This document shows positions 1 to 50,600 of a stretch of 64,000 nucleotides of DNA, piece by piece (within the stretch, counting starts at the first letter, position 1; every line of letters begins with the position of its first letter). This DNA is from Liolophura sinensis (Eukaryota; Mollusca; Polyplacophora; Chitonida; Chitonidae): contig NC_088307.1 in the NCBI RefSeq assembly GCF_032854445.1, positions 17,980,001 to 18,044,000 on the forward strand, written 5' to 3'. A program made the position numbers and the translations under genes. The notes below the pieces were generated by a model. That model saw only the letters and a list, made by a program, of their open reading frames with translations, did not search any database and was not told the origin of the DNA.

Positions 1-359
1 TACAAACAGAGAGAGTCAGTGTTTACTATATGGATATCAGTATCTTAAATTAAACCATCTAAGTACACGGTGTATTTCTTATGCTAACGATTTGACGATT
101 TCAGGTAAAGAAGAGCGCAGGCAAGGGGAAGCACCCATGCAATTCTTATTTCAGTTCACAAACGAACTTCACTTCCCAAATTTCGGAAGGAAAAATTTTA
201 TTGGATAAATGACATTCCATTACCAGGACCCTTGTTAGCCGTCCTACTCTAGCAACATAGGTCAATTGGGTTGAACGCCTGGACTAGGATAAATGACAGA
301 CGAGCGAAAAGTAGGTGTTTTGCCAGATCTCTATAGTCAATTTAGGAATTACGCAAAGT

Positions 360-2575
360 CTTGCAACGTATACGAAATGACATATCCTGTAACGAAGAGA
401 ATGAGCCATACGAATCCCTGTTCGTTGATATTGAATTGACTATCAAAAATAAATACCTCGAAGGAATAACATCACCCCCGCCCCGGAAAAGACGTTCAAC
501 TCTTCAGTAAAATGCATTTTACTTGGTGACTTTAACATTGACCTTTTTAAAACAGACAAGTTTACGCCCACCACATGTTTCCTTGATATTATGAAATGTA
601 ATTACTTCCTACCGTAAATAACTAAACCAACCCATGTTAAACAACCTTGGCGGCCTTGGTTGATAATATTTTCACGAACAGAATTTTTTTTCGGGTATAC
701 TACTAACTGATATAAGTGACCATTTTCTTTTGATTCACATTTTTAAGATCAATATTCAACCATTCCCGACACAAGGAAAAACAATTAAAAATACTCAGTG
801 GCATGAGATCCTTGAGAAGGATTATACAAATAAAGTGCTTTCTTTAATTCACTCGTTATTTACAAACATTTACGATGAGCATTTTCCAGTTGTATCATTT
901 CGCTCACTAGAACACAGAATAAATTTGTCGAGAATAACTACTTCGTCCCAACAAAGGAAATCACTATCGAACTGTCACAAACAAACTTAATAAACTAATA
1001 TCGAGAACCAGAAAAGAATATTATGAGCGTAAATTTAATAAGGCAAATAACGACATAAAAGGTACATGGACGGTTTTGAACGAACTCCTAAGACGAAATA
1101 AAGGTGACATACCAACAAATTTTACTAATGAACACAATGACCTCTTGGATAATCGATTCCATAGCAAATAACTTCAACAAATATTTCAGCACTGTTGCAG
1201 CAGATCTAAAACAAACTATCCCTGAAACCTTGACATCTCCTCTTGATTTTCTGCAACAAGTATCTAACGCAAATTTTAACCTGTCACCAGTCACACCGAG
1301 CGATGTTAAATGTATTATCCGCAAACTACGATTCTCCTGTCCCAGGTACTGATGGCGTATGTATGTCTGTGTTGAATCAGTCTCAGACTATATCTCAGTG
1401 CCCTTTTCTCATACAATTAACCTTTCCTTAAGAACTCTCATTATTCCAAAATTGTTTAAAAACAGGTAAAAGACCACACTTTAAATCTGGTGATAACCCC
1501 CCTTACGATAACTACAGGCCGATTCCGTACTACCTGCTGTCAGCTAGATTGTAGAAAAATTAGTTGCCCTTCAAATAGTTGGCTTTCTGGACAAAAATGC
1601 CATAATAAAAAATACTCAATACGGATTTCGACCTAGCCATTCCACTGCACAAGGAAGTTTCGGCCAAGGAACAGCGCAAATTCAGTGACAAGTGAGCTGG
1701 AGTCAATAAAGTTTTACTAAATATTAACAAAACTAAATGCATGATCATTAAACCATACAAGAAATCACTCCCTTCAGACATCCCGAAACTAAAAATAGGC
1801 AGCTTTGAAATAGAGTTTGTTGATGATTTCAAGTTTCTTGGCGTTGTTTTCAGCGCTAACCTATCATCGACATTACACGTTATATATATATTTCAATACA
1901 TACATACACGCAACATAGGAATTATAAAGAAACTTAAGAACAAAAAACACTTCTGATACTGTGTATCTCCCTCATTCTACCCTACATTTTTTATGCAAAT
2001 GCACTTTGGGGTAACACCTACAGGACTCACCTAAATCCCTTGTATATTTTGTAAAAGCGGACAATCCGCATTATCACTTCCTCACACTGATTTGCACACA
2101 CCCAGCTATTATCCATTAACTGAAAATCCTAGATTTATTTCAACTCCACACCTTCTCTTGCCTCCAGAATGTCCATAAGTTTATATATAGACCCTTTTAC
2201 CTGTCAACAACGTTATGCCAACAAACCATTTTTAACGTGCAGTCTAATGTACACTTTTACCCTAAACGAAATCAAAAACTAAATCTCCATAAACCATTCA
2301 CAAGAAATAACCTCTCCATATATTCCATCCATTCAAAAACTTCCCAAATATCTCAAAAGTATCAACTCTTTTTCTCCTTTTTAAAAATAAATCAAAGGAT
2401 TGTATGTACATGTATAACGGGATAGAACAAGTCCACCCGTACTTTATTCCTGCATTGCAGTCATTTAAACATTTGTTTATAATCATAAATGTTTATACTA
2501 ATATCATCTTTATTATATCTTTGTATACATCTGTATTCTGACTGTTTGTGAATAAACAAACAGACATACAAACAA
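360..2575 (+). mobile_element. Decayed non-LTR (LINE) retrotransposon, endonuclease plus reverse transcriptase remnants
   Basis: Translated pieces in shifting frames follow the order of a LINE ORF2. An apurinic-type endonuclease motif LGDFNIDL lies near 510-560. An SDHF-like segment follows near 715. Reverse-transcriptase pieces lie at about 1000-1660, including a TDGV-like patch and NTQYGFRPSHST near 1610-1650. A C-terminal FKFLGVVF segment lies near 1825-1855, and a connection region runs to about 2400. Many stops and frameshifts break the frame, and the stretch that should carry the catalytic YxDD box is missing between about 1650 and 1700, so the copy is internally deleted and dead. The motif style resembles jockey- or CR1-like elements; the clade is not resolved. 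Both ends are approximate. Confidence 0.8.
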
Positions 2576-3573
2576 ACCCCAAGGAAATGTTGCTAAGAAG
2601 CGGCTGTATGCACGGTCATTCAGTGTTTTATTACCTGTAGAGCTACTTTCATTATATGTGTACGTGACAATTAAAAGACTATGTCAGATCTTTGTTCTCG
2701 TCCCTGCACGAAATACTTAGAGCTCTGTTGTCCCAGTTATGCAGGTAAATGCTGTTGCGAGATGTTAACTTACGTGTAGTGTTGACCAGTTTGAAGGTTT
2801 CTTTGCGGATCACTCCAGGGCAAATTGGTACCATCGAAGTCAACATATGAAACAAGGAACGTACTGCGTGCTGTTAAGCTTTTGTGGACAAACTAGGGGA
2901 GTTAGCCATTCTTTATTAATGCATACTCACTCCATCTCACATGTGCTAGCTTAGCCGGAGGTCAACTTACTAAACACAGGACATGTATGCCAACATTTGA
3001 AAAGCTGAAATACCGTGACATGCATGGAGATGGAAATCGAACACCGTTCAGTCGGGAACCTTCCATGTACATAAAGTATTTCTGGCCAGAGCTAGTCCAT
3101 TTTCCATTCTTACTTTTATGATGTGGGCAAGCTAGTATTCATGTATTAAAAGAGTGCAATGTCAGTTTGGTTTGGACCTAGACGTCATTGCGCAGGAAAA
3201 GGTTCGACTGCGTATCATTGCAATCATTCCCTTGTGAAATATTTTTCACAGTCTCTGAATGTTGTATTTCCTTGAACGATTTATTTCACACCTTCCTCTA
3301 AGACATACATATATGATTTATTTATTTGATCGTTGTTTTACTTATATACACTGAAAAAAACAAATGTTTCTCATTTAAACAGATCTCTGACACAGATAAT
3401 AAACGGGGTTAACAAATGAATGCCTTGCTGTGAATATCGGACTATTATACTATTTAGAGCATTAAAATGATTCCAAAGTATCAAAAAGCTATAATTTGAT
3501 CCCTTTTATACATTTAAGAAAATTCATAAACATTTACTTTGAACATGTTCAAGGCATGCTTATTTTTCAGATA
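2576..3573. other. Gene-free stretch
   Basis: No open frame with coding character, RNA gene or recognised repeat was seen here. It is AT-rich and ends at the first SINE A copy. Confidence 0.5.
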
Positions 3574-3829
3574 AGGGGCCTCCGTGGCTCACTTGGTTAG
3601 CGAGCAGGACCAAGGAGTCTCTCACCAATGCGGTCGCTGTGAGTTCAAGTCCAACTCATGCTGGCTTCTTCTCCGGCCGACTGTGGGAAAATCTTCCAGC
3701 AACCTGCGGATGGTCGTGGGTTTCCCCTGGGCTGTGCCCGGTTTCCACCCACCATAATGCTGGCCACCGTCGTATAAGTGAAATACTCTTGAGTACGGCG
3801 TAAAACACCAATCAAACAAATAAATCAAA
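3574..3829 (+). mobile_element. SINE A, near full length, with target-site duplication
   Basis: The tRNA-like head carries an A box (tggctcacttgg) and a B box (gttcaagtcc). The body is followed by the conserved tail gtaaaacaccaatca and an ATAA-rich end. The direct repeat atttttcagata occurs on both sides (3562-3573 and 3830-3841), which marks a retroposition event. Confidence 0.9.
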
Positions 3830-4103
3830 TTTTTCAGATACACGCGTATGTTTCATAAATATATTGACTTATTTTATAAATATCCAGTATTTTATAAATA
3901 CTCACATTTATAGCATAAATGCAATAATTTATAAATTAAATTTTGTAAATTGAATGGGTTTATTGCTTAACCGGAATGATTTAAACTTTTCAATGTATAT
4001 GATCAATATTATAAAGCGGTCTTATTATCAGTTGTTTGATAAACTTGAACGCCCAAGAAACAAACACTGAAACACGTCGAGATCCCTCATGACGAGTACA
4101 TAT

Positions 4104-4152
4104 GCCCCTCCCCCCCCCATTAACTAAAGCGCCCCCCCCCCCCCCCCCCGCC
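4104..4152. repeat. Two poly-C tracts
   Basis: Runs of about 9 and 18 cytosines are separated by a short AT spacer. Tracts like this are prone to length error in assemblies and may form quadruplex or i-motif structures. Confidence 0.8.
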
Positions 4153-4994
4153 GCAACTAATTGAACAAATTCCCCTACTACCACAGAGCGGCCGCTCTCG
4201 ACCGCATAATGAGCTCTAACAAAGGGGCAATACTCTGCCATGGGCGCTATTATAAGGCAGCAGAAAAAACTTAATACGCTCTTGAGTCGAGAGTAACAAT
4301 GATGACAGAGCATTCACATATAAGGGCGAATCTGGAATAGTTGATGAGATATCTCGCAAAAACTTAAGTCAAAGACTTTGCTCGGCTTTTGGTGAGATCG
4401 ATGACACTCATATAGTTACACAGACAAGTCAGTATGGGAGCAGCTACTATATCTAACTGTAGTAAGATTTTAGTTTTACTTCAGTTACTGTTATGGACAA
4501 GTCAGTAGAGGGAGCAGCTATTAGATCCGACTTTAATGAGATCGAGATTAACCCAAATATTCCCTTATCCAGGAACTATCGTACACAAGCACCTTGGCTT
4601 TTAACAATGTCTTTAATTCATTTCCATCAGACAGGGGTCCATCGATAAGTGTATAAATAACACTGTAAATATGTCGAGATACCTGAAACGGTCGTCAAAC
4701 ACCAATGGCATCAATAAAACACAGATTAACTCACCTGTGAAATATACTTAGGTTTTGCTTGTGATTTGATATAAACCAATATAAATACTCAGATGGCCGT
4801 GCAGATAACCGTACACAGCCAGGAGAAACCAAGCGCACTTTGCCTTAAACCTGACACACCTACATCCTGACTAAAGGCACCGCCCAAACCAACAACAGCT
4901 GGGTTTAAGCCAATTTTGACCATATCTCTGACTTCGGCTTCGACCGAGGTATCTCCAGGTATCTTTATGAAATCTTCTAGTATAAAAGAGTACA

Positions 4995-5200
4995 GTACAT
5001 GAGCAGTGATGATAATTGACAACTGGTCACACGTAACCTTTGAAATGCGGACTCTTGTTAATTTACGTCAGCTAGGGTTTTTTCTCTAATTGTCCATGTC
5101 AATGCATAAATAGTAGCACAATTACTCGTAAAATAATGCAGTGATGTCAATCGCAATTTATTACACGTCACTGGTCTAAAAATAATTGAAATGCTGTCTT
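4995..5200 (+). repeat. Dispersed family C copy
   Basis: Family C is recognised by ordered blocks: a start like gtgatagttggcaaatggtcacacgtaaccggtgaaat, described here only by its 5' part (gtgatagttggcaaa), then 'cttgtcaatttacctcag', 'catggcttaagcagaatt' and an end like 'cactggtctagaattactc'. This copy keeps the first and last blocks with substitutions. No coding capacity is seen. Confidence 0.65.
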
Positions 5201-6640
5201 GTGAAGAAACAATCACATGAAAATCACAAGGGACTAGACGTCCAGGATGCTAACTTTAACAGCAGAGCTTTTTAACTTTTGTGATGGTAAATATATTCAA
5301 AATGTAAAACCTTTATTTTTGATGAATAGGACACGAATTCATTAAAAATTGTATTGATATACTGTATATAGAATCTGAGAAATCTTTGATAGTCGAAAAA
5401 GATTAATCCTCGATTTTATTGGATAAGCTGTCCGTGAGGTCTGGGTCCGACCAATCAAATACAGGATTCGTGCGATTCAAACGTCAAATCACTGAACATT
5501 TGCCTGACTCTTTACCGGGATTCCTTATATGTGAAAAAAATGTCCTTGTAAAATGACGGTGTGGCGCCGTCTCAACTAAGGCAGATGTTTGATTCTATTT
5601 CAGGATGGGTTTAAACCTGTGATCTCATTGGCCAAGGAGTAGGGGACTTCCGTCGGTCATGGAGGGTACGTGGCTGTGGAAAGAAGCAGAGTGAATATAT
5701 ATGCACATAAATTTAAGTCCAAGAATAAAGCTGATTGCATTTGTTAATACCAAACCCACTAGATAACAACTACGCGCAACGCTCTGAGGCAAAGCCATCG
5801 AGACGTTTCTGTATCAGAACCGGGTCAAGTTATGGCCGCTAGGTGAGATTGTCTGCACACCAGTCCACTACCCCTCAACCCCCATCCCTAACCCACCCCC
5901 ACACCTGCCCCTGGGAGCTCCACCACCCAGAAACAGTAGCATACACAACGATTACACTGAATGATTGATATACCAAGAGTCAGAAGTCTATGTCGTTTAT
6001 ATTTTGCACTGTTGGTTTTCTGACAGACCGCTCAAAGCCGTCTAAGCACCGTGCACGTAAGTGATTATGAAGCGGTTTTGCACGCGACAAGTGGTCATCT
6101 TCACTGGTGGGTACACCACACACAACTTTACATCAAGAGAATAGGCGTATTTAAACACTTATTCATTGACATAAGGAAATGTAGTCCCATACAAATATCT
6201 GATGCGTGGCCCGAAGCCTTAATTTAACGACTTATATACTATAAGCACAACGTCCATTTTGTACCCTCATGCCTATTTGCTTTTTCACTTTTGTTTCATC
6301 TTTGCTATGTGCGTCAAATCAGACATTCGTATACCAGCCGTCAACCAAAATGGTCGTTCCAGGTCGCACGGCTAATTCCCAAAGCATTCTTTCAACACAA
6401 GCCACCAATACACTGAGAAATTATATAAAGCATGGAATTAAGATTCGTTTATACAAAGAAATGAGTTTTCAGTAATAATGGAAAGAGTCAAGGAAGGTTC
6501 TAGGCGAATTAATTAAATCATTAAATCAGTAAGCCCTAAAGCTGTTTCTTAAAATTTTTAATCTTAGCCTTTGAATCTACATAAAGTACACCTCGGCCCA
6601 CCTAATGTCATTGTTTACCATATGTGATGGCATCACAGTA
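5201..6640. other. Gene-free stretch
   Basis: No gene is supported. A C-rich patch with several CCACCC-like words lies at about 5870-5930. Short open frames have no recognisable product. Confidence 0.45.
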
Positions 6641-6870
6641 TTTTTGAGGATTTCTAGACCAGTGCATGGCATCTAATAAATAACCCTATGCTTTAACTAA
6701 TCCTGCTCCGAACCCTGGAATAAAACCCTAACCAAGATAAAGTGACAAGAAGCTGGATTCCACTGGTGAGCATTTGCCAACTGTTACACTGCCTGCATTG
6801 TTTTGGATTTACACTCTGTATGCTGTAGCCCTGTATGCTGCAACAATACGCCGTGATTGGGTAGGTCGAC
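6640..6870 (-). repeat. Dispersed family C copy, reverse orientation
   Basis: It reads from the 'tttctagaccagtg' end toward the 'gtgatt..' start. The central blocks are diverged. Confidence 0.55.
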
Positions 6871-7184
6871 GTAACTGACCACAAGTTCTCCAAGCTGTTT
6901 AAGTCAGGCTGCCATAGCTTGTGATGTTATTCCTGATCTATTTTACTTTTGTCATCTAAGTCCAAGAGAACTCTTTGTAATAAAACACAAATTTTGAGGC
7001 AATTTCTGACTTAAATCTAAGACAGTTTCTTATGTCAGACTTAGTCTCAGCTTGTGATATTATCCTTTGAAATTAAAATCTAATTTTCATTTTAGTTATG
7101 AAGGTATAGGAAGTCCTGGTACAAACACATAAATTCCTAAGACAATTCACAGTTTTCGTGCAGTAAACTGTTTTGATTTATTAA

Positions 7185-8881: not shown

Positions 8882-9880
8882 TGAATGTGAAATCATGTTA
8901 GTTTGCGTACATTTCTGGGTAAATTGTTTCGATCAATTCATGGCAGTAGTACTAATCCCTTTCAACAATTCAACAATTCTGTAATAGAATAGGTATAATT
9001 TTGTTTAAGGTAACGGTTTTGTTATTTTGAAAACTGGAATGTTATTGAAGGCTATGTGGCAGACGTATTAACATAAGAATGTGCTAAAATTAACAGTATT
9101 TACGGAATTGCAAATATGTGAACTAACATAGCATTGTACATTGTCTCTTCAAATACATTTAATTCGGAATACATTCAGAGCAAAATGATTTTTTTTAAAT
9201 GCAGACCAATATTATTTTACAAACAGTAGGTTCGTTCTACCGTTAAATGTGAGTTATTTCTCATTGGAGAAAACTGGGCAGTACCACGGACAGGAATCCA
9301 GCATGAGATGGACTTGAACTCACAACAAGTTCATTGTTCTTGAGATCTTGGCGGCAATCATCGTCATTTTATCAAATCAGACACTTAGCATTATTATGTT
9401 TAATTCTCTCGATCCAACAGACGGGAATGACCTATTCACCCGGTTTAAATCTGATGAATATTAATGTAAATACAATATCCAATCAGATAGTAGTTTCCCT
9501 AATGATGGACAACTAGACTAAACAACAGCAACGTGCACACGTTGTCCGCACACACGGTTGATGTCAGGTAAAATCTCACCTACACAGAAGCACTCTACAC
9601 CCTTTACGAGTGAGGTCAAAACAGACAGAAAGAGCGTTCGACCGACTGATCATTGTGGCCCGTCACGTGTTTAAGAGCTTTCAGTTGATTTGATTGACAT
9701 GTCTGAAGTTTCTCTTTGCATAAATACTTTGCCAACCTGAGAAGGTAGGCCTGAATATTTGATTGGATAACGATGACGGTTTGGCTAGTTCCGATAGGAA
9801 CATTTTTGCGTAATTGTCGGTTTATAGTGGTAAACGGAGTGGTACAAAAGCGTAGAACGCTATGTAATATAAATAAAGGT
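8882..9880. other. Gene-free stretch
   Basis: A weak, degenerate minus-strand SINE fragment may lie at 9265-9325 (gctggattcctg/ttcaagtcc-like words). No gene is supported. Confidence 0.4.
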
Positions 9881-9884
9881 GTAC

Positions 9885-10370
9885 AGCATGGAGAGTAAGT
9901 CAGACCAGCGGCGACAGTGTGATAACTGATCGATCATTTTGAGTAATTCTAGACCATTGACGGTTAATAAATTGAAATTAACATCACTGCATTTTTTTTA
10001 CCTAATTCTGCTTAAGCCATGGTGCTATGTAATTTGCTACCCTTTATGCATTTACATGAACAGTTAGAATAAAATCCTAACTGAGGTAAAATGACAAGAG
10101 GTTGTATTTCACCGGTTACGGGTGACCCCTTGTCAACTATCACACAGTCGTCGCTGCTCTGGATTTACGCCCTATAATGTACGTCTTTTATAGTATTCTA
10201 GTCAGTTTACCGCAGTAAGGGCTTTATTCTATCTGTCCATGTAAATACGTATACACTAGCAAAGTACACGCCCTCTAGCACCATGGCTTAAGCAGAATTT
10301 GGTTTTAAAAAAAAGCATATGCATTGATGTTAACTGCATCATGTTAGACGTCACTGGTTTAGAATTACCT
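9885..10370. repeat. Three family C pieces in mixed orientation
   Basis: A plus-strand start fragment (9885-9935) is followed directly by a near-complete minus-strand copy (9935-10185) and a plus-strand copy lacking its start (10197-10370). The opposed copies could fold into a long imperfect hairpin. Confidence 0.6.
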
Positions 10371-12827: not shown

Positions 12828-14715
12828 ATTCGTGTGTATTTAAAATAATAATTAAAGAAATCGTGGAAAAAATGTAGTGTATTTTTCACAATAGGCACAT
12901 AGCGGATCATAATGTAAATGTGTCCGTCTTCTTTACTTCGCTCTCTTATTTTCTTGATTTTTTGTCTATCAATTGCAATGTTAAAGTTATAAAAAGCCAA
13001 TTGGCTCAAAACCAACCACCATACAGCAATAAGAGTGGCACTAAAATTTCGAGGTTATACCGTAATCACAGGTGGAGAGCTGTAAACACGTTAATGGGAA
13101 CATAGCGAGGTTGCCGGGTGAAGACGGGGCGAGAGGATCAAATCTTGTAACAGCCCAGCTATCTTAAACCTAGGGATCCTTACACGAGACAGCGTCTGTG
13201 TTTTAAATCGACGCCATCTTGCGCCAAGACAGCCAACGCATTGAAACAAAGAGATATTTTGATACCTATTTTTAGCATTTCTGCCCGAATCAGTTCAATA
13301 AAACATACAGGTTAACTCTACTTATTCTTTTTTTTTATATTTATTTATACCATCGTGCTAAATGCTATACTAAAGAATATGGCAGACGACACGTATATAG
13401 CTGGACGAAACCGAGAAGAACATGAGGGACCCAATGCATACAAGCCTACACCAGGGTCTGTCATTGGAGTTGTCAGGTGACAGAGGTGAAACGAACGAAA
13501 CAAATTTGTCACACAGTTTAACAGTGCAAACGCGACTTAAGGGCACCTAGTTATTGCCAAGTGGCCCTTCACTTTTCATGCGAACGAGGAGCCCAATAAT
13601 GATGTCATTTGTCTACTGTGTGTGCTTTTATGACCTGGTCCGCGAGCCTCTCTTCGCAACGACCCTGATGCCACGGAGAATGTGTGCTCGGCTCATTAAA
13701 AATGCCGAAATCATAAAAGCCCATTGGACTAGGCTGTGAAAGTCAACTCTCTTACGATGTGCAAGTTTAACTGACCGCTCAAGGTGAACTCTGGGGGCAA
13801 ACATTTGTAAATCACGGGGTGGTTAAAGGTTCTCTAAGTATATATATTGCCATGTTACCAGTGAATGTATGTATATAAACATTAACACAGTTTTAACTAA
13901 GCCTCCGTATGTATAAGTCAAGTTTGGTATAATTTAGCGATACCAGCATTTAGAGTACCACTGTATTGGACTGAAAACCCCTTGGATTTTTACGCCGATC
14001 CAGCTCAAAGAAGCAACTTGGTAAGAAAGTTAACTGTTATACGTAGTCTACAACAATGAAAATATAAACAGCTCATTGAAATTTAAGTTCTTGAAGAAGT
14101 TTAAAGAAGCAAGATTTAGAATTAATTTACCACATCAGGAAGTTTGCCAGGTACCTGCTCAAAGGCGGTGGTTTATTTCGGACAGTCCAGTTCCTTCCAC
14201 CTCTGAATCAAACAAATGGTTCAAATAAAACTATTGCACTACACAAATAGCGCCACTTCACGATACTTAAAACATTGTCATATGTGAAACCGGTGTCAGA
14301 GAATCCATTCCGAAAATCTGACTGTCAGCCTTCGAGGCAATCCACAATAATATTCCTGTCACAACGGAAGTACTTCCATGATAAAAAAAATCATCATTAT
14401 AATACACAGTATGTTTCCATTGTCAAAAGTTTAGATGTATACACAGAAGTCATATGAAACATTCCCTTTTCGTAGCTACCCCTTCTTTCAGAAGCAGGAA
14501 ATGAAAGAACACTTAATATCACTGACGCACAGGTACCACCTTTTCATATCCCTGTCTTGATAAACTGGCATATGCAGGAGTGCTTTCAACAAGTACCAGC
14601 GTATGTCAACATCACACGAATGTATGGTCAGGGACCAACTTCACAAAGTCATCATAAGCTAAGTTGATTATATCTGCCATACAGCAAAACTTGTATGAAA
14701 AATGCATTTAAATGT
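12828..14715. other. Gene-free stretch
   Basis: No supported gene. Short open frames on both strands lack recognisable domains. AT content drops around 13560-13740 without a clear exon. Confidence 0.4.
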
Positions 14716-35600: not shown

Positions 35601-38600
35601 TGCTGTGACACTAATTAGTTTGAAATAAACAAACCTTTGAAGTTATAAGAACAGAGCGTGAATCGCAGAGCGTCTGTTCCACACTCAGGGATGCCTTCTG
35701 GGTAATCTGACCTCTGACCTTCCATGGCCTTCTTAATCTCTGCTTTGGACAAATTACTCTCTAGCAGTTGTTTTTGTAAGCCCTGAAAAAAAAAATTAAT
35801 AAAGTAATTAAATTAAGTAAACAAATTAAGCTCTAGGATGGTGATATTTCTGACACTGAAAGAAGTGTACAGAACTTACAGGTCGGGCGTCAATACATCA
35901 TCACTCAGGGCAGTTCAAACACAGGGCCCCAGCAGTTCAAACACAGGGCCCCAGCAGTTCAAACACAGGGCCCCAGCAGTTCAAACACAGGGCCCCAACA
36001 CTTCAAACACAGGGCCCCAGCAGTTCAAACACAGGGCCCCAACACTTCAAACACAGGGCCCCAACACTTCAAACACAGGGCCCCAGCAGTTCAAACACAG
36101 GGCCCCAACATGTCAGACACAGGGCCCCAGCAACCAGAATCTGTACATCACTACTAATGAACATTGTGATGTACAGCTATGCCAGTCATATTGGTGAAAG
36201 AAAAGTGACCTTTAAAAGAAACGGCAACATCAAAATAAATGTACATGTGCATCAATAGTGCATGAAGGTTATCAGGCATAATTTGCTGTCTTTGTGATAT
36301 TGCATAGCAGAAATATGCAAAGTTCAAATCAAAGCAAAATGGCACACATCATATTGTGCCATATCACCATTTTTGACCAATCAGGTGTGAGCTATCTCTA
36401 TAACCTGAGACACAGCCGTTTCCAATTCAACCCAAATCTCATTTGGCTATTAATCATACAGGCGTGGGATTTGATGTGACATGGGTGTTTCTGGTTGCCT
36501 TAACGTGGCGCATCCCAAGGCCATGTAAAAATTTCACATTAAAAATTGATGTATTGAATAATCAAGCACATTAGATACATGTTTCTATGGCTATTTATGT
36601 CTGCTTCCACCCCCTCTTCCTAAATAACTTGGGTTATATTATTTGTCGTCATTTTTTTTTTTTTAATGAAGGTCAATGATCGCTGTTTGTTACCAAGGTT
36701 ACAGGAACTGTGAGAGCAGGGGACACAGCCAATTTGCTGTTCATGGATTGGACTGAACCCACACTTTGCTTGCCCCAGTCAATATTTATTTATTTATTTG
36801 TTTGGTGTTTTACGCCGTACTCAAGAATGCATGGGAAAGCATAAACTGATATCAGTTTTTACACTGAACACTCATATGCCTGGGTGTATCTGAATAGATT
36901 GCCTAGCGTAAATGTATTCATTTATTTATTTGATTGGTGTTTTACGCCATACTCAAGAATATATCACTTATACGATGGTGGCCAGCATGATGGTGGAAGG
37001 AAAGCGGGCAGAGTCCGGGTCACTCCACTGTGCTGGCATGCTAACTCCCTTGGCCACAGAGACCCCCTCCTAGCCAATAAGAGACAAAAATTTTTAACCA
37101 CTTTCCCAAGGTCAGTCTAAACATACGTCCAATGAAATCCCTCGTATGATATCGACAGGGTCCACCACATTGCCCAGAGACTTGCTCATCTTCCTGCCAT
37201 GAGCATCACGTAACGTCCCATGAAGTAACACCTGGCCAACACAAAGTCGAGAAGTAACACATGAAAACCAGTTACAGTTACACAAAGTTGAGAAGTAACA
37301 CATGAAAACCAGTTACAGTTACACAAAGTTGAGAAGTAACACATGAAAACCAGTTACAGTTACACAAAGTTGAGAAGTAACACGTGAAAACCAGTTACAG
37401 GAGAGCAAAGCTATTTTCTTGTAGGTCAAGTGAAGTTAACACAGTCAAGTGAAGTTAACACAGTTACATTCATGTATTGGCAAAGCTGTGATCCAATAAG
37501 GAGAAAACTGTAACGGTGGGTTTGATTATTTAGAGACATTTTTGTCACTCACTCACTCACTCACTCACTCACTCACTTAACACTCAGGATAGATTTTTGA
37601 GTATTACATTTTGTACAATGATATACAGAGAATGAAAGAAAGAATGGGAATTTCTAAATTAATTCAAAAGTTCTCTGTCAGCGAGCCGCTGATGCAGACG
37701 TAAAGATTCACCCCACAAAACTGAATATACATGCTCTGACCTGTTTAAATGGCAGTTCTCCAGTAAGTTTCTGACCCAGCATCACCATTCTGGCCACCCA
37801 GAAAAACAAAATGTCATGACCCGTTTCCAGCAGAGACGTTGGGTAGAATTTACACAATGAGTCAGTCTGAAAACAAAAAATGTTTATTTACTTATTCATT
37901 TATTTATTTATTTAATTAATTATATACATGTAAAAGTACTTGCTCTTGCTGTAAGATTTGAAAACAAATTTTATCTATTATAGTCAATAGCTCAAACTAG
38001 GTCAAAAATTTATTTATTTATTTACAAATTTATTTACAGCTCTAGCAAGGTCAAAATTACTAGGTCCTGTATGTACCTTGTCTGGCCAGCCAAACACAGC
38101 AAACGGAAAAAGAGCGGAAGAAAACCAAGTGTCCAACACATCCTCATCTGGTAACACAAAAACACAGAGCAGTAATTAAGCTTGCAGTTTTCTGTCACTG
38201 TTTTTACATGTTTCTAACGTTATTTCGTAATGACCCAGGAGCCTCTCACCAATGCGGTTTCTGTGAGTTCAAGTCCAGCTCATGCTGTCTTCCTCTCCGG
38301 CCATACGTGGGAAGGTTTGCCAGCAAACTGCTGATGGTCGTGGGTTACCCCTGGGCTCTGCCCGGTTTCCACCCACCATAATGCTGGCCGCCATCATGTA
38401 AGTGAAATATTCTTGAGTACGGCGTAAAACACCAATCAAATAAATAAATAAATCTAGCATTATTTAATATTCAGGGGACCATTATCACCTTTCTTCTCTC
38501 CACACCTTTTTAGTAAATCCTGATAATTGTGATCGAAACACATGGTCTGATACCCAAAATACAAACACTTAACAGCATGAAGTAAAATTACGTACCAGTA

Positions 38601-41600
38601 CACAGGTAAGTCCTTGCCACTAAAGTTTTGCTGATAAAGACACCCGTTCCTTGTTCTAACCTCTTAGTACCAAGCGTTAAGCAAGGCAGCAACAAGCATC
38701 ATTTTCAAAGTCTTTGGCATGACCCAGCCTGGGTCTCCTGACTTCAAGGCGGACAGACTTACCATTAGGCTGGACGGACATAAAATGTTGAATGATAAAC
38801 ACAGCTATATACGTAGTGTATGTACCTTGTTGTAGAACTATTTCCCCCGGTGGACAGTCCATTAGCTGAGCGGCCTTAGTTCTGGCACTGGCCTCACTCT
38901 CTGCACACACCCACTGCCCTCTATTATCAACCTAAAATATCACAACAACAACATGTTTTGGAATAACTCTCCCTTCAGACTGGTTGATTGGTGTTTAAAC
39001 CCATGCTAAAGAGCACTTCTTATATTACGCACGTCTGGTGTTAGCAGTATTGAAAACTGTCTGGCTAAATTCTTTTTTACTCTCCTCATATGAAAACATA
39101 TTCTGAATCTTAAAAGTTACTTCACAATAGACATTACATGTGCTTTTACAATTTTACATGCAATAAGGCTGAGTAATCCCGCACTTTCTTTTAACCATAT
39201 TTACTTATTTCTAAAGACATGTCTGAATAATTTATTTATCTATTTATCAGATTGCTATTTTACGCCATATTGAAGTGTTTATGGGTGGAGGAAATTGAGT
39301 GCCCTAAGGAAAAACCTGATAAACCTCCTGACTGAAAGTCACAGCTGAACAAGCCAGAGCTGGATTTGAACTCCCAGCTTTATTTTCCATTGGGGTCATA
39401 AAGGCACAAATAAACATGACATATGATTAATTCTGCAGCTTTTTCAGTCATTTTTATGCGGACCAGAAGTGGCAAGGCACCTGATATACTACTGTAGAAA
39501 AAGTAATCTGCATTTTACTGTTACGGTGGTCTACAGAGGAATGCTCTTCATCGTCTTGGCCAATGAGATAATTTAAAGAAATACAATAAACAAAGCCACA
39601 AAAAACGCAATGCACTGTACCTCAGTTTTTGCCAAATATGCTGGTATCCGATGTCCCCACCAGAGCTGACGAGATACACACCAGTCCCTAATAAAACAAA
39701 ACAAAAGACTGAATCCTGATGTATCTGTATAGTTAAAAACGTTATGACATATGAGCTATGGGTTCAACACCGGCCTTGGAGAGCCAATTTTTTAATTTCC
39801 TCAATTCTCATTTGCCTGGGTGCCGGTTAACGGTCAGTAAGGCTTGTATGGTCCTTTGCGCAGTTTAATGTTCATTAATACTTTCTGTCTTTCACCAATA
39901 TAGAGTATACATACATCTGTACACCACACATGGGAAAGTTCATCTGTAACTTGCCAAAGTTCAGTGGTTTAACTCAGGCACTCCGGTGTCCTTAACCCAT
40001 AAAACTGACTGCCATCTGACAAGTGAAAAATACTTGAGTATGGCATTGAACCACAATCAATCAAAGAAATATAAGACATAATTAAAGTGAGCCACTAAAG
40101 CTGAATTAATTAATAAAGCAGTATTCCAGAAATGTTCTAAAAATATTTTTAAAATTCTACACCTCTTATCAACAAAATAAATAGCAAGTGATCATCAGTA
40201 TCGAACCACTCATTTGCTGAAACCATTTTGCCATGTTACAGTTATCTAGAGTGACCTCACAAAACCTAGGAGCTCTCCTGTATCATCAGTATTAAACAAC
40301 ATGTCAATGAGAAAATACAAACAGGGATGCCTGATACTCAGCCAAAGAGTATCAGTTCTGTCCTGTTTTCAAAGGGCTGATGTTCCTTTTCGCTAGGCAA
40401 AAGCGTCGTGTTTTAGCAGCCCTGCTCGGCCTCATCTTCTACCTACATGGGTGTCAGCATTAAGCCTAGCTGGCTGTACCGACATTAGGGAATTTACCGA
40501 ACATAGCAGGAGCTTCTGCTTTATAACTCTTTCGTGCAGATTTCGTGAAAAAATTTCTCTCATTAATCTGTCTTTGCTAAGGAAAAATAATGCAACGTCA
40601 CAATATTTTTCTTCAAGCAATGACTTTCCCGAGGCGGTTTTCTTGCCACTTACAAGTTACTGCAGTTTCCTGCCCTACATATACACATTGTGACACGGGC
40701 AGCCATTCTCAGTTCTCTCTTCATAAATGAGTGGTCTAAAATGCATCAGTTTAATGTTTAAATTAACTGCAAAATCCAATTTATTTCATCTATATCTGTC
40801 TATCCACTATGAGAAACCACGCTGACAATCGACAGCTAATAGGTTTTTTGACGTGACAGCCAATTATCACATGACACTTTCAGCGCTAATGATTGGCCAA
40901 GTTCATAAGGGCTTCTACAACATGGCTACTCTGAATTAGTTGTCCGTCAGTACCATATCACCAATGCTAAACTTCATCTTCTCAGCTTTCAAATCTTCAT
41001 AGAGTTTTTCACCATATTTTTTGTGTGATAACTGTATCCTATATCCTTTTTTCTATGTATATATAGTGGCAGACTTTATGTTCACTTTAACCTTTAAACA
41101 AAAAGAAGCATTTCAACATTTTATGAAAGATTTAAACTATGAATAAAACATATATGGGGACCTCCGTGGTTAGCGCGCTAGCGCAGCATAATGACCCAGG
41201 AGTCTCTTACCAATGCGGCCGCTGTGAGTTTAAGTCCAGCTCATGCTGGCTTACTCTCTGGCCGTATATGGGAAGGACTGTCAGCAACCTGCGGATGGTC
41301 GTGGGTTTCCCCCGGGCTCTGCCCGGTTTCCACCCACCATAATGCTGGCCGTCGTCGTATAAGTGAAATATTCTTGAGTACGGCGTAAAACACCAATCAA
41401 AAAAAAAAAAACATATATGTAGCCATACTTCAGGATGACCTCTGGGTGACCTTTGTGCTCGAGTCAAATATATAACATAAAGGTCTTCTAGACTAAAGTA
41501 ACTCAAAATGTAAACAAACATCTAAACCATTTCTGAACTTCAATCAAAATATATCTAATCTATTTATCTTCCCATTCACACAAGATAATTCTGAACATTG

Positions 41601-44600
41601 CAAAACAACACAAAGTGTGATACTGTTAGATGCATTTATTTAACTTTTATTCAAGCTGACCTGATGTCACCAAGCCAGTTGTACCAGTCAGACTGGTACA
41701 TTGCAGGGTGAATCTCCAGTTCCCCACTTCTGACAGCCTACAACAATGGCAAGCATAAGAATAAAAAATAAAATTTATTAAGCTTGCTTAAAACATCAAA
41801 CTATTAAATGGACCAGATTTCACATCCTATAAAATTTTGGATTGCTTGCGTAATATTGGTTATATTACCAAAAAATGTGTAAAATGTCATGAATTCTGCG
41901 CTAAAAACGTTGCCAGATGCTTTCCATTACATGTACATCATATCAGTCAGACACTTTTACCATTTCGCTCGTTTTAAGAGAGTTTGTTGAGAGAGGTGAC
42001 TTTCAACATGATAGCCTATGGATGAAATTCAAAATCAGAGTGTTAAAGCAGATGTTGGATTTGGAAAAGATTAAGTTTTCTTTAATAAGTTTCTTTACAA
42101 ATGGATTTATCTTAATCTTCACCTCCAAAGCTTGCTGTGCCATTTCCTTACATGACACAAACCACTGCTCCTTTAGTCTGGGTTCTATTACATCGTGAGA
42201 ACGGCTGAAATAAGAAAACAGTGTGCTATTACATCATGAGAATGGCTGAAATAAGATAAATAGTGTGCTATTACATCATGAGAACAGCTGAAATAAGAAA
42301 AATAGTGTGCTATTACATTATGAGAATGGCTGAAATAAGATAAATAGTGTGCTATTACATCATGAGAACAGCTGAAATAAGAAAAATAATGCGCTATTAC
42401 ATTATGAGAATGGCTGAAATAAGAAAAATAGTGTGCTATTACATTATGAGAATGGCTGTAGTAAGAAAAATAGTGTGCTATTACATCATGAGAACGGCTG
42501 AAATAAAAAAAATAGCGTGTTCAATTACTCTTCAATAATGAGAGAGGGATATTAACCATGTTAAATGAACATTTGTTCCAATGGGTGACTATTCTGATTT
42601 TCAAGTATATTTTGGTTGGTTTTGTTAAGTTTTTTTATCACAATGGATAACTGGGACCGTGTAAAGTACTCTCAAGGAACTGCCAGTACAGCCTAAGACT
42701 CTGACGTGACTTACTGGCACGAAAGTCGGACCCTCTGGGCAATTTTTCACTGACCTGCAGAGTGGTAGGACCATGGGGTTCTCACACGTTCCCCTGAACA
42801 AGCCTTTCTGGCTTAACGACTGTATCAGAGCTTCTCGAGCCTCAAAACGTTTCATACCCTAAAAAGAAAATAATATGGCATACAGTACCCTGGTAATGTC
42901 CTGTTAAGCCAAGGTGTACCCAAAATGTATATTCGCTTATCAAATCCATTTTCCCGTGTTCGCCAAGAATAGCTCAAAGTATTGACTTTCAGTATATATC
43001 AAATTTGTACCTGCACTGATATATTAAAATAATTCTGAAGTTTTAAATGCCACTCGCTTTATAAATTTTAGAAACTTTAATACCGAATTTGAATGATAAC
43101 GCACACACAGACAAGTCTGCTACTTTGTGAAAGGTGATTCAAATATTTGCATCCAAAATCCCTGATATGGCCTCCATATTAAATCAACAGCTATTTGACC
43201 ACAAAAAGGCAGTGCAAGATACACAGTAGATATAGAAACTGCTTGGTTAAGGAATTAATATTTATTTTTATTAATATTTATATTAATAATGAAATCCTAA
43301 TTTGACCTGGTCCAAGACAATGATTAAAGCAGCTTTAACTTAAAATCAAGTCCGATCTCATCTGTTCAGACAAAATATAAAAATTCTCCAATAGTCTGGA
43401 AAATCAGTTTGAACCAAAACTTTGTTCTGCTTAAAAGTCCCAGGTTCCAGGATCTGTTATACACAATTCTAGGACACCCTAGAAGTAATTAAAATGCTTT
43501 GATCTGTGCATAGTATTTGGAGTTAACCCAGTATAAATTTACAACTGATTGAAACAGCTTCAACTTAAAATCAAGCTTGTTCTCATCTGTTCAGATAAAA
43601 TGTAAATATTCTCCATGTCGGGGCCTCCATGGCTCAGTTGGTTAGCGCATTAGCGCAGTGTAAAGACCCAGGAGCCTCTCACCAATGTGGTCGCTTTAAG
43701 TTCAAGTCCAGCTCATTCTGGCTTCCTCTCCGGCCGTACATGAGAAGGTCTGCCACCAACCTGCGGATGGCCGTGGGTTTCCTCCGGGCTCTGCCCGGTT
43801 TCCTCCCACCATAATGCTGGCCGCCGCCGTATAAGTGAAATATTCTTGAGTACGGCGTAAAACACCAATCAAATAAATAAATAAATAAATTCTCCATGTC
43901 TCGAAAATCAGTTTGAACAAAAACTTATACACACAATACTTTGATCTGTGCATAATATTTGGAACTAACCCAGTATAAATTTACAACTGCACTGAATGGG
44001 TAGAGGAAACCGGGAGTTAACAACCACTTTTCACCAGGTACTTCATCTAAATTCGTAGCCACATCAGCAAGATCTGGATGAATGCTTACATTAATAGCGA
44101 ACATATCAGCAAACTGAGCTAAAATGCATCATCTCGAACCCCTAAACTTGAAGCTACAAACTGCATAAAAAATATACAAAATAACGGAAATATTTAACAC
44201 AATCATAGCTATGAATTTATTCTGACAACTTTTAAGTTTGTCATGGGGCCTCTGTGGCTCAGTTGGTTAGTGCGATAGCGCAGCGTAATGACCCAGGAGC
44301 CTCTCACCAATGCGGTCGCTGTGAGTTCAAGTCCAGCTCATGCTGGCTTCCTCTCCAACCGTACATGGGAAGGTCTGTCAGCAACCTGCGGATGGTTGTG
44401 GGTTTCCCCCGGGCTCTGCCCGGTTTCCTCCCACCATAATGCTGGCTGCCATCGTAGAAGTGAAATATTTTTGAGCACGGTGTAAAACACCAATCAAATA
44501 AATAAATAAATAAATAAGTTTGTCATGAAAAGCCTTTGCAGTTCACCTGACATATCCAAAAATAATCACAAATACTGAGACACTGAGTAACATGCTCATT

Positions 44601-47600
44601 TCCAAAAATCATGGTCATCACCTACCTGAAACTCTGCGGACACATTAGTCAATCTGCCATCATCAGCTAAAATCGTAACCATTGGCAACCCGTGCTTCCT
44701 GCCCACATCATAATCTTTATGATCATGTGCTGGAGTCAACTTTACAGCCCCTGTAAATATAAGCATTCATGAAGTGTTAGTTTCCAACAACACTAAAATA
44801 CATCCATAACAAGCGCAAATTCACATGTACATGTAGCTGGGACATCCTGTGTGGTGTTTCGTGTCATCTTGCACTAAGACCCCTTGTTATTCAACTTAGT
44901 GGCCCATCTTCAAAGATAAAATGCCGGTGTTAAAAGATGGGATATACATTTATTCATTTACTTATTTGATTCATTGGTGTTTTACGCCGTACTCAAGAAT
45001 ATTTCATTCATACTACGGCGGCCAGCATTATGGTGGGTCGAAAAAGGGCAGAGCCTGGGGGAAACCCACGAACATCCGCAGGTTGCTGACATGGGATATA
45101 CATATTTATTTATTTATTTGAATAAGTATATTTCACTTATACCACCTTGGCCAGCATTATGGTGGGAGGAAACCAGACAGAGCCTGGGGGAAACCCACGA
45201 CCAGCCGCAGGTTGCTGACATGGGATATACATATTTATTTATTTATTTGAATAAGTATATTTCACTTATACCACCTTGGCCAGCATTATGGTGGGAGGAA
45301 ACCAGACAGAGCCTGGGGGAAACCCACGACCAGCCGCAGGTTGCTGACATGGGATATACATATTTATTTATTTATTTGAATAAGTATATTTCACTTATAC
45401 CACCTTGGCCAGCATTATGGTGGGAGGAAACCAGACAGAGCCTGGGGGATACCCACGATTATTCAAAGGTTGCTGTCAGACCTTCCCACATACGACCAAA
45501 GATAGGGTGTAAAACCGCTGCCCAACCAACAGACATGCCAAGTAACTTTAGTACAGAGCAGCTTGGCATAGCTTACTGTATATTAATCGATGGAATTTCA
45601 ACACCAATCAATATTGCTGAATTTAGTCATATCGGTGTTTTTATTCACTGATTGATTGAATGACTTACTGATTGACTAATGGATTTATGTATTGAGTTAT
45701 TTATTTCTTCGACTGATGGATCCACTGATAGTTTGATTGATTGACTGACTGACTGATTGATTGATTTGCTGCAGACAAATCAGCCAGAGCTGGATTTGAC
45801 CCTATGACCTTAGTGGCCAATGACCAAACAGCCGCTTTAACCAAATGTGCCAGTGAGGGCACTGGGAGGTGTTGTTGATTTGGTACTTTAGAGCAATAAG
45901 AAGACAGGGGCCACTAGTAGATAGTGTACAGGCTGTTGGCCTGTGTTTTGGGTAGTGTGAAAATTATACAGCCCATTCATGTCTGTTACTCTGTATACAT
46001 TGTTAAAGTACATCAAAAATTGTCTATTTTTATACCTATATATTTTTTGGATTGATGTCATCACTGAAAACTGCATCATATAAAGTTGTAATTTACTATA
46101 AGCTACATAATCACCTGTGCCATATGATTTGTCAACAAACTCATCCTGAATGATTGGAAGGCGACGATCCTCAAATGGATGGGTCACAAATTTGCCGTGT
46201 AAATGTGAAAATCGGTCATCCTCTGGATGTACACACACTGCTGTGTCTCCCAGCATGGTCTCCAGGCGAGTCGTTGCCACGACAACTTCCTCATCTGTAA
46301 ATTATTAGTCATTCATAATGCACATGTATTTGCAACTAAAATATTCGTCAACTTCTGATTTAAATGTAAACTATATCCTAGATAAAGGTTATCTAGCAGC
46401 TGTCCAGCGATAGCGTCTTCTATGCAAACTATGGCTACTGATAATATATTTTGTCTTCCAATTTGAGTCTTCTAATTTCCATGACAAGAAGATGATAAAT
46501 GAAAGAAAACATCACACAACAAATTTTGCATAAACTACCGGTACACCTGATTGGTATGATTGGTCAATCACATTTTCAGCATTTATCAACAGAGCACTTA
46601 TCATGTATCATATTTTATGAATTATCATGTATTATATTTTATGAATCAAAAATTATGGATCCCCTACTTGGCCTCATTTCACAAAACGCTATGGGCCAAC
46701 TTGATTATAACTATGCTGAAAACTTTCTGACTCATACATGTATAATGGCGGCCAAAATATCATGTGGAGGAACCAAAGCAGAGTAATCAATCAACCTTTG
46801 GTAAATTACACTGGTGAATTTTTGCATTGCGTGACATATGTCCTTTTTTTGCATGGCAAGTGGTCTACAGAACTTCATGAAAGACTACACCAGAGAGCGC
46901 TTGTCACTATGGCTCCGAGAACAAAGACATGCTTGTTTGTTGTTGTGGTAGTTACAATCAATTTGGTCTTCTGAATAGTTTGTGGGGAAAAAATCACAGT
47001 AAAACCTTTCAAAATAATTTTATCCAACTTATTACAAAAAATTAAAAATATGAATGACAGAATCCTCACCGCTTCCTTCCACTGGGTATGCAAATGAATG
47101 TAACAGCCCAAACTCCACTTTGTCCTGGTAACCAGGGACATCCAGTAGAGTGCGTCCTGACAACTCCATGTTCTCCACCTGAAAATACAAAAAACACTGT
47201 TAAGGGAGGCACCAATTTTACTTTGTGTTTTACAGGTAAGCTAACGCCAAAAATATACAAATATAGAATAAAAATAAACTGAATAAACTGATGTTTTCAC
47301 GATATTAATGCTTCTCAAGGCTTTCAGAACACATAAGACTTTTACCACAAATATGCATTTGGAGTAATATGCTGACATGTTCATACTTCAATGTCAGATA
47401 TGGTGGACTTCAGGTGGCAGCACCAGTGAACCAATCGGTCGCTCCGATAGATCAAGCCAGCATCATGCAGCTGCACAAAGGCCTCTGTAACAGCTTTGTT
47501 CATTGGCTGAAAATACAAAATGAAAATATGTTCTCTTCAGTGTACTAAACTTCCTGAGTTATCTCTGGTTGGGTGCGGAGTTACTCAAAGCAATCAAAAA

Positions 47601-50600
47601 AAAATAAAATCAATAAATTTATTCGATTGAAATTTAATACATAATACGTAATATTTCAGTTTTGCAACTTAGAGTGCTCAGTTTTATAGTTGCCAAATGA
47701 GGCAAAGCGATAAAATTTCTCTAATGCAACAAACAAGAGCAAGCCGAATATCAAAATGGTGGAATTTATTTATTTATTTGATTGGTGTTTTATGCTGTAA
47801 TCAAGAATAATTCACTTATACGAAAGTGGCCAGCATTATGGGGGGAGGAAAACGGGCAGACCCCGGGTGAAACCCATGACCATCCGCAGAATGCTGCAGA
47901 CCTTCCCACACAAAAAGTTGGAAGGCAAGTGAACAATTTGGAACTTCATGTACGACTAAGCTTCTCTGCAAAAACGATGGACTGCATATTGCCACTTAAG
48001 GAGCTCTCACATGGAGCCCAGTTTGGCCAATTTTTAGTGCCGAGTGCGTCATGTGTTGTATTCGTGAAACGTCGGGGAGACTCCGGCGTTGTCGGCGAAA
48101 GGTCATGGAGTTGTCGTGACACTGTCCTGGCAAGGTCGTGCTGATCTGACCAAGTCCTGGTGAGTACTCGTGCCAAGTCGTAAATCTATCCTGGTGTAGT
48201 CGTAGCACAGTCGTTGTACTCTGGACTCTGTCATACAAGTCGTGCTGCAGTCCTACTGTCGTCGTAGTACAGTCGTTGTACTCGGGACCCTGTCATACAA
48301 GTCATGCCGCAGTCCTACTGTTGTCGTAGTACAGTCGTTGTACCCAAGTCGTGCCGCAGTCCTACTGTTGTCGTACTACAGTCGTTGTACCCGGGACCCT
48401 GTCGTACAAGTCGTGCCGCAGTCCTACTGTCGTAGTACAGTCGTTGTACTCGGGACTCTGTTGTACAAGTCATGCCACAGTATTACTTTTGTCGTAGTAC
48501 AGTCGTTGTACTCGGGACCCTGTCGTACAAGTCGTGCCGCGGTATTACTGTTGTCGTAGAGCAGTCATTGTACTCAGGACTTGTGCCGCAGTACTACAAC
48601 AACAGTAGGGCTGCAGCACAACTTGTACGACAGAGTCCCGAGAACAACGACTGTTGATCTGATATAAATCGGCCTTGGGAGAGCTACTTTCGACTCCCTT
48701 ACAACAGACCACGAAGAGCAAATATTGTAAATGGCCTATAGTTTCAACCAAAAAAACTGTCTTAAAATATTACTTTAGGCACAAAAACTTGCCTTTTTCA
48801 TGTAGGATATGATCCTACCTTCTACACAAAACTTAAACTATTGTTAGAGGATCAAACAAACTTTGAACAGTGAGCTTCAAAATATTTACAAAATTGAATG
48901 TCGGTATAACATTTAGGTTTCTACTGGTAAACAGCTTTAAATGTAAGTACTTACTTCATCCAAAGTAAATTTCGCCCTTTCCCAGTCTAGAGATGAGCCT
49001 AACTTTTTCATCTGATCATAAATTACCTCCCCTTTTCTGCAAAATACAGAACAGCAAATCCATAACAGAAAACAGAACCTGTTAGTAGTAAACCAACTAA
49101 AATTTTAAAGATTTATGAAGAAATTACAATCACATATTCTTCACAGCACATGTATTCCATAGCATCAATGTCAATAAAATACAGCTTTTAAAATTAAATG
49201 AAATTAAGACAATAAAAAAACAATAAATTAACATGAAGCTAACTATATGAGGTCACATCTGATTTTCTGTTTAACAATGTACTAAAGAAGTTTTCATCTA
49301 GATGAAAGTTATCAGGTTTATGGGTGGAGGAAAGTTGTGTTCCCACTGTAAAACATCCACTTCAAAACAACACAGCTTTTTGCCCAGAACCTAATAAACC
49401 TCCTGAATTTATTTAATTTTTTCGATTGGTGTTTTACGCTGTACCGAAGAATATTTCACTTATACGACGACGGCCAGCATCATGGTGGAAGGAAACCGGG
49501 CAGAGCCCGGGGGAGACCCACGACCATCTGCAGGTTGCTGCAAGACCTCGTGAACTGAAACCATAGCCAAAACAATGCGAAGCAGATTCAATGTTTCCTA
49601 CCCCACTGGTCAGAGAGGAAACCAAAAGAAACTCTGGGTGTGCACTCTAGATTAAAACAAAAATTGAAGATGTAAAAAACTAACTCATTTTTCCATTTCC
49701 AGATTTCTTCAATAAAATGCTCCCTGCCCAAATCGTGGCGAGTCAGCTGTTTCTCTCTCCACAGTTTTTTCTCCACAACCACCTGTGTGGCGATTCCCGC
49801 ATGATCACAGCCAGGCACCCACAGAGTTGTCTCCCCTTTCATCCTATGCCTGCAGAAGAGCACATCACATGAAATGGCAATATAGCAACTAGTGACAGGC
49901 TCAACTGATATCTAACATTTGCAAATCGGAATGAGCCCACATACTGTGCATGTATTCAGGACAACACACAGCTGATTGGCAAAGATCGAAAATTGGACCA
50001 ACATAAATCGTCAAAATAAGACATCAACTGAGATATTGTTGCCTACACTGAATCTCCAAAATCTACACAGAGATGTTATTTCAGAGGAATGATTGTGACT
50101 TCATTACTTGCTGCATGAAGACTTCGTTTTTGTGAAGCGAAGAAATAAAATGTTACTTTTTAACAATACACAGGCAACATCCTAGTTACTAGGTATATAT
50201 TCATTTAACAACAGCAAGGCAGTGATGTTGTATTACAAAGGCAGATCACTGTCTTAAAGGTCTGCCAACAACCTGTGGATGGATGTGGGTTTCCCTCGGC
50301 TCTGTTCGGTTTCCTCCCACCATAATGCTGGCCACTGTCGTATAAGTGAAATATTCCTGAATACGGCGTAAAACACCAATCAAATAATCAAATAAATAAA
50401 TAAACACTGTCTTAAAACATAGCGTCTCACCATCTAACAATAGCATCCTGGATGGAGTTCGTCAAGGCGTGGCCCAGATGTAGATTTCCTGTCACATTGG
50501 GTGGAGGCAGACAAATAACGAACGGATCTGAGATGTCAGAGCCCTGTAAATTATGCGGAAAAAGCAAGACGCATCTATTTAAAAGTGAACCAGGATATGT

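Follow-up and report, generated by a model that had tools for sequence, protein, structure and literature searches.

A minisatellite repeats the 3' splice site of a valyl-tRNA synthetase exon in the mollusc Liolophura sinensis

Which 3' splice site is used when an intron carries seven near-identical copies of it ahead of the exon? This question is raised by a valyl-tRNA synthetase (ValRS) gene on the minus strand of the window, the 64,000-nucleotide (nt) stretch of Liolophura sinensis DNA that we analyzed. An intron of 550 nt (42205 to 42754), bounded upstream by an exon at 42755 to 42858 with the donor CTCTGCAG/GTCAGTGA and interrupting the frame in phase 2, is followed by an 82-nt exon at 42123 to 42204 with one codon split by the intron. 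Across the 3' splice site of this intron, at 42185 to 42519, TRF reported a minisatellite with a period of 42, 8.0 copies, 89% matches, and a score of 530. Each 42-bp unit consists of a T-rich pyrimidine tract, a CAG, and about 20 bases resembling the exon start. The first exon-type bases of units 1 to 8 lie at 42497, 42455, 42413, 42371, 42329, 42287, 42245, and 42204, with acceptor-to-acceptor steps of 42 (six times) and then 41 nearest the exon. The TRF output and the list of positions thus confirmed to the base the copy number and spacing given in an earlier note, and its reading of the array as repeated copies of the 3' splice site of a VARS2-type exon is supported by the unit content and the flanking ValRS exons. 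The 335-bp array had a single match in the 609-Mb assembly, which was the array itself, and no relatives of it were found elsewhere in the assembly, in both cases with a search tool that skips very common words. One copy of the locus was found in the assembly, and no second haplotype of it was seen there.

The exons at 42858 to 42755 and 42204 to 42123 encode valyl-tRNA synthetase. The joined peptide of the gene model scored above the curated cutoff of NF004349 (785 bits) and that of TIGR00422 and aligned with an E value of 3e-147 to 1gax, the Thermus ValRS. This alignment was gap-free across the intron junction and the exon at 42204 to 42123, which indicates that acceptor 8 yields the conserved protein. 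The gene model comprised 16 exons and covered the gene short of its 3' part; a further upstream exon was seen near 51.3 kb, and the donor string was not found there. A second ValRS gene was present at about C13:6.704-6.72 Mb, and this paralogue (C13:6.71 Mb) has an intron at the identical place and in the identical phase to the array-bearing intron. The region ahead of the paralogue gave a KPKTAAQLKKEAKRLEKLEKFKAKQ reading with no Pfam hit, presumably cytosolic and VARS1-like. Since there are two ValRS genes, and the paralogue has an intron matching in position and phase, VARS2, the name of the mitochondrial ValRS, is a reasonable provisional name for the gene in the window. A 39-residue query over the junction matched only the VARS2-type gene itself and the paralogue and revealed no spliced retrocopy with the mature junction. 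The VARS2 introns also hold minisatellites that stop short of any modeled exon, at 35910 to 36132 (22 bp, 10 copies), 44995 to 45458 (129 bp, 3.6 copies), and 48195 to 48580 (62/109 bp). Additionally, the window contains a dispersed repeat (for example, at 41207 to 41521, 43679 to 43980, 44236 to 44522, and 49352 to 49646) with a recurrent peptide-like reading and several open reading frame copies, which looks like a SINE-type element.

The seven upstream acceptors (42246 to 42516; first exon-type bases 42497 to 42245) all retain the AG, in every case as CAG. Scored with self-written generic matrices, they reached 4.7 to 6.2, compared with 4.4 for the real acceptor, which bears out the view that every unit is a potential acceptor. 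With no decoy weaker than the real site by this generic matrix, site strength is unlikely to select the real acceptor, and position would have to do so. Read from acceptors 1 to 7, the frame meets no stop until the last unit, where the final step of 41 shifts it and brings all seven readings to a shared TAA TAG; the conserved protein is read from the exon-proximal acceptor of exon 42204 to 42123 only. The claim that only this acceptor keeps the frame therefore held for all of the decoys, and from protein conservation and frame we infer that acceptor 8 is the one used in splicing.

The last 60 intron nt contain four matches to the branch point motif yUnAy, two of them upstream of the AG of acceptor 7. 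The two in the last inter-acceptor interval are CTCAT (42236 to 42240), which falls within unit 7's copy of the exon head and has its A at 42237 (-33), and CTTAT, with its A at -7, only 6 nt from the AG. The former is our candidate branch point. Downstream of it, a TAG follows at 11 nt and the real CAG at 32 nt. Scanning reportedly passes over AGs that lie closer than 12 to 15 nt to the branch point (PMC1431707), and thus from a branch point at CTCAT the TAG at 11 nt would be skipped and the real CAG used. From a branch point farther upstream, scanning would presumably reach a decoy AG before the real one. The earlier note presented the array as a natural test of how the first or last AG is chosen; a test of site choice it may well be, but the yUnAy matches in the last interval suggest that it may be better framed as a choice of branch point.

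In human CBS, the 68-bp duplication 844ins68 reportedly supplies a second 3' splice site, and it is said to have been studied experimentally (by Romano in 2002, judging from a title cited in PMC2630376). The two cases share an enzyme gene, an extra 3' splice site, and the question of which site is used; the VARS2 array differs in being an array, whereas CBS has one duplication. A 31-bp variable-number tandem repeat of human CBS spans the exon 13/intron 13 boundary and is likewise a short repeat over a junction, but it is on the donor side and polymorphic in humans, while the VARS2 array is on the acceptor side. Variable internal tandem repeats in human segmental-duplication genes average 30 bp in four copies, can sit at exon-intron boundaries, and are reported to change transcripts and perhaps create introns (PMC2812944); the VARS2 array, by contrast, keeps the conserved exon.

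The closest known structures are the amphioxus "mirages," in which either boundary of an intron is copied in tandem like a minisatellite and which have been reported in Adh3, BflGb6, and BflGb9 and also in troponin C and PGBD5 (PMC3087553, PMC3902484). The AG or GT is reportedly kept in many, not all, of the copies, and Adh3 data and globin reverse transcription-PCR suggest regular splicing (PMC3087553, PMC3902484). The amphioxus units measure 10 to 72 bp in Adh3, 150 to 160 bp in BflGb6, and 157 bp in BflGb9, and the number of BflGb6 units differs between two haplotypes, 6 in one and 3 in the other (PMC3087553). The VARS2 array, too, is made of tandem boundary copies with the AG: the intron end and exon edge were found together in tandem units, the splice signals were kept, and the authentic exon was whole. 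It differs in its mollusc host and its 42-bp unit, in that recurrence was measured here (12 of 109 introns), and in that normal splicing is predicted here from the sequence. No mirage in molluscs was found in the open-licence literature, where the name was found for cephalochordates only, and the available part of a paper on Conus introns treats only microsatellites and includes no junction arrays (PMC3862624). The VARS2 array is not a singular oddity but belongs to a class already published (PMC3087553), in a new phylum as far as the open-licence literature shows.

We read the array, with a probability of roughly 85%, as a mirage that was founded by a duplication, grew within the intron, and is spliced at the exon-proximal acceptor as exon definition predicts. 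The exon body is whole at the downstream end of the array, so splicing at the exon-proximal acceptor would leave the mRNA unaltered. Exon definition would be the most economical rule, the acceptor nearest the exon's own donor being the winner. U2AF and U2 would settle on the last pyrimidine tract and on a branch point within the final 41 nt, and scanning in the second step would bypass the TAG 11 nt away and take the CAG 32 nt away. By the same rule, the first donor would have to win in donor-side mirages. Exon-proximal choice on either side is the prediction of exon definition and the opposite of that of a shortest-intron rule.

How often such junction copies occur was measured in 109 introns modeled from neighboring exon matches: 16 in VARS1, 15 in VARS2, 38 in nine genes of the CCT family (PF00118), 18 in myosins, and 22 in adaptins. 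The CCT-family introns came from nine gene regions out of 76 PF00118 places; for myosins (at least 84 places, with 65 of 213 candidates scored) and adaptins (57 places), the sample covered stretches in which both neighboring exons were matched. Excluded were 12 neighboring exon pairs without a consistent pair of junction sites, as well as pairs whose family coordinates left a gap or overlapped widely. Probes of 30 exon and 8 intron bases were aligned to their own introns at a threshold of 11. Junction copies were found in 12 of the 109 introns, 5 on the acceptor side and 7 on the donor side, and mirages are thus unexpectedly common among the sampled introns of this genome. The aligner detected 11 of them, with top scores in their own introns of 17 to 38, and the twelfth is a second, AG-free array in VARS2. 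Among 22,192 swapped probe-intron pairs, the best score was at least 14 in 9, at least two such matches occurred in 1, and the maximum was 16, against a top score of 26 for the VARS2 junction probe in its own intron, where 7 copies exceeded the threshold.

On the acceptor side, copies numbered 7 in VARS2, 50 in the myosin intron m3 (47 with AG), 2 in the myosin intron m9, and 26 in the adaptin intron a11 (23 with AG). On the donor side, they were scored twice in VARS1 (6 and 2 copies), in the CCT-family introns cctA (6) and cctD (10), in the myosin introns m7 (17, 16 with GT) and m15 (1), and in the adaptin intron a4 (3, 2 with GT). Two inclusions had little margin: m15, with its one extra copy, and the second VARS2 array, whose alignment score of 10.5 was under the threshold of 11 set for the other introns. 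Donor-side mirages lie at C13:6704625 and C13:6713457 in VARS1, at C1:72038337 and C8:53405973 in the CCT family, and at C12:684216 in a myosin gene. Two of the arrays were plain without probes. In the VARS1 exon homologous to the exon behind the VARS2 array, the donor end is repeated at 146-bp steps in the raw data, and the VARS1 donor-side mirages lie at 4693 to 5030 and 13404 to 13926 of the joined regions L004 to L006. A profile search matched CCT-family positions 361 to 395 four times at 109-bp steps. In a myosin-head gene (L023, C2:5375801-5379600), intron 269 to 2696 carries about 50 tandem units of 31 to 32 bp, TTTCTTGTCTGCTGTGTTTGTAG/GTTTGAGCG, of which 47 have an intact AG, before the true acceptor. 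The placement of possible branch points varied: in a11, the sole yUnAy match in the last 60 nt also lies inside an exon-like copy (by eye), in m9 the candidates fall in the intron part, and in m3 no yUnAy match was found within the last 60 nt.

Matches barely over the threshold were not counted; these were the acceptors of cctA (1 copy, score 11), cctI (5 copies, 11), and VARS1 (V1) at 13374 (1 copy, 12) and the m8 donor and the a6 and a12 acceptors (1 copy each, 11 to 11.5). A VARS1 array of 21 30-bp copies (9610 to 10246 of the joined L004 to L006) had no exon homology by eye and was also left uncounted. Separately, a CCT-family gene (L018) has a 47-bp minisatellite of about 101 copies that fills most of its 6.6-kb intron (261 to 6876) and touches no junction. 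In another region (L021), myosin-head profile positions 118 to 152 and 121 to 152 were matched at C1:26642195-26642299 and 26643291-26643386, about 1.1 kb apart, and these successive matches are possibly mutually exclusive exons. At C8:37880506-37891931 lies a mollusc-type hemocyanin gene with eight tandem functional-unit domains (PF14830, a family not known outside molluscs); this marks the genome as that of a mollusc and speaks against amphioxus, where mirages are known.

The 11 aligner-found introns contain 122 decoys with an intact AG or GT, and 84 of these scored at least as high as their own real sites by the generic matrices: 7 of 7 in VARS2, 10 of 10 in cctD, 42 of 47 in m3, 5 of 6 in VARS1-4624, 12 of 23 in a11, 3 of 6 in cctA, 2 of 2 in m9, 1 of 1 in m15, 1 of 2 in a4, 1 of 16 in m7, and 0 of 2 in VARS1-13456. 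At least one decoy equaled the real site in 10 of the 11 mirages; strength could help site choice in m7, a11, and VARS1-13456. Most decoys (116 of 122) are nonproductive through a frame shift or a stop. The six that are in frame and stop-free all belong to cctD, whose first steps measure 66 nt, and could be used without breaking the frame.

These counts bear on an alternative in which the upstream acceptors are really used and lead through their shared premature stop to nonsense-mediated decay, with copy number setting VARS2 output. The strength of all seven VARS2 decoys and the single TAA TAG to which they lead fit such a dial, and first-AG scanning from an upstream branch point would in principle favor the decoys (PMC1431707). 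However, the reported amphioxus mirages seemingly leave splicing undisturbed (PMC3087553, PMC3902484), and 116 of the 122 decoys in the 11 mirages, which come from VARS, CCT-family, myosin, and adaptin genes, are nonproductive, which looks neutral and not like a device tuned in one gene. We thus consider regulated use of the decoys improbable, and an effect of copy number on VARS2 at most possible.

Just upstream of the array, the intron block GTAATTGAACACG (42516 to 42528) resembles the exon block GTAATAGAACCC (42191 to 42180), and the two are 44 bp apart once the decoys are removed (31 + 13); together they are a plausible founder homology of the first duplication. The founding event, in a mollusc VARS2-type gene, would have been a tandem duplication that took in the 3' end of the intron together with the beginning of the exon, presumably by recombination or slippage between intron GTAATTGAAC and exon GTAATAGAAC, 44 bp apart. 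Unit pairs 3-4 and 5-6 agree in 82 of 84 bases, pairs 2-3 and 4-5 in 78 of 84, and pairs 4-5 and 6-7 in 65 of 66 compared bases. The units look dimer-like, which suggests that later growth proceeded partly in two-unit (84-bp) steps. Slippage inside the intron would have been neutral, and the exon-side unit would have been kept by selection on the protein.

A repeat count inflated by misassembly is very unlikely: the BflGb6 mirage of amphioxus did appear aberrantly assembled in a draft genome (PMC3087553), but the VARS2 units differ in an ordered, dimer-like way, and similar arrays stand at 12 of 109 introns. Least likely of all is incipient intron gain or exonization, with some units turning into exons or new introns, as has been proposed for amphioxus globin mirages (PMC3087553) and reported for boundary repeats in duplicated human genes (PMC2812944). 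Although each unit can be read through in the exon frame, the final step of 41 nt moves the reading into stops. The best GT in the array (AAT/GTAATA) has a score of 0.5, whereas the 109 modeled donors have a median of 4.1, a few real donors scoring as low as this GT.

The second VARS2 array (37239 to 37400, minus strand; 41 bp, 4 copies), identified by TRF, ends 7 nt before the acceptor of the ValRS exon at 37231 to 37127. Each 41-bp unit repeats the first ten bases of this exon, GTGTTACTTC, preceded by CAT (three copies) or CAC (one copy) where the exon has CAG, and AG is absent for 177 nt above the true acceptor. The two VARS2 arrays thus contrast, one with an AG in every unit and the other with no AG for 177 nt, and we read the second as a junction-derived array that has probably lost its acceptors. 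It was counted by an exact ten-base test run after the array had already been noticed: at least two exact copies of the exon start were present in the own intron for 3 of 109 acceptors, this one included, and for none of 11,096 swapped pairs. The same test on donors gave 3 of 109 own introns versus 1 of 11,096 swapped pairs.

Arrays also appeared to be overrepresented at exon edges. Counting TRF arrays with a period of at least 10 and a score of at least 60, and calling an array exon reaching if it extended at least 5 nt into the exon, we found 26 arrays in 87 introns, with 8 reaching the exon, and 5 arrays in 22 adaptin introns, with 2 reaching the exon. The total of 10 of 31 compares with 2.89 expected (P = 2e-4) under a null in which founder units are placed uniformly and intron length is reduced by the arrays; without this reduction, the expectation was 1.86 (P = 4e-6), and in an earlier version with 26 arrays, 8 were seen versus 1.58 expected (P = 7e-5). 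The array list was transcribed by hand, and the periods of cctA (109), a11 (47), and VARS1-4692 (32) were set by hand in place of the TRF values of 218, 190, and 64. Because the null is crude, three periods were hand set, the gene families were hand chosen, and a single genome was used, the enrichment is a lead. That about 1 intron in 9 in this mollusc has an amplified splice junction, with minisatellites at exon edges above what unit length predicts, is a tentative generalization to which we give somewhat less than even odds. If it is true, some process tied to splice junctions would seed tandem duplication there, a strict exon-proximal rule would let splicing tolerate dozens of equal decoys (one myosin intron has 47 intact ones), and these loci would amount to a natural experiment on exon definition across the whole genome and to a source of intron change.

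Overall, in these arrays, decoys and real site are nearly identical, and therefore strength is held roughly constant while position is the variable. Under exon definition the copy closest to the exon should win, and under intron definition the one farthest away; on the donor and acceptor sides alike, it is the closest copy that the conserved proteins demand. Natural length alleles, if they exist, would provide a dose series. With 12 of 109 sampled introns, the survey extends mirages from cephalochordates to a mollusc.
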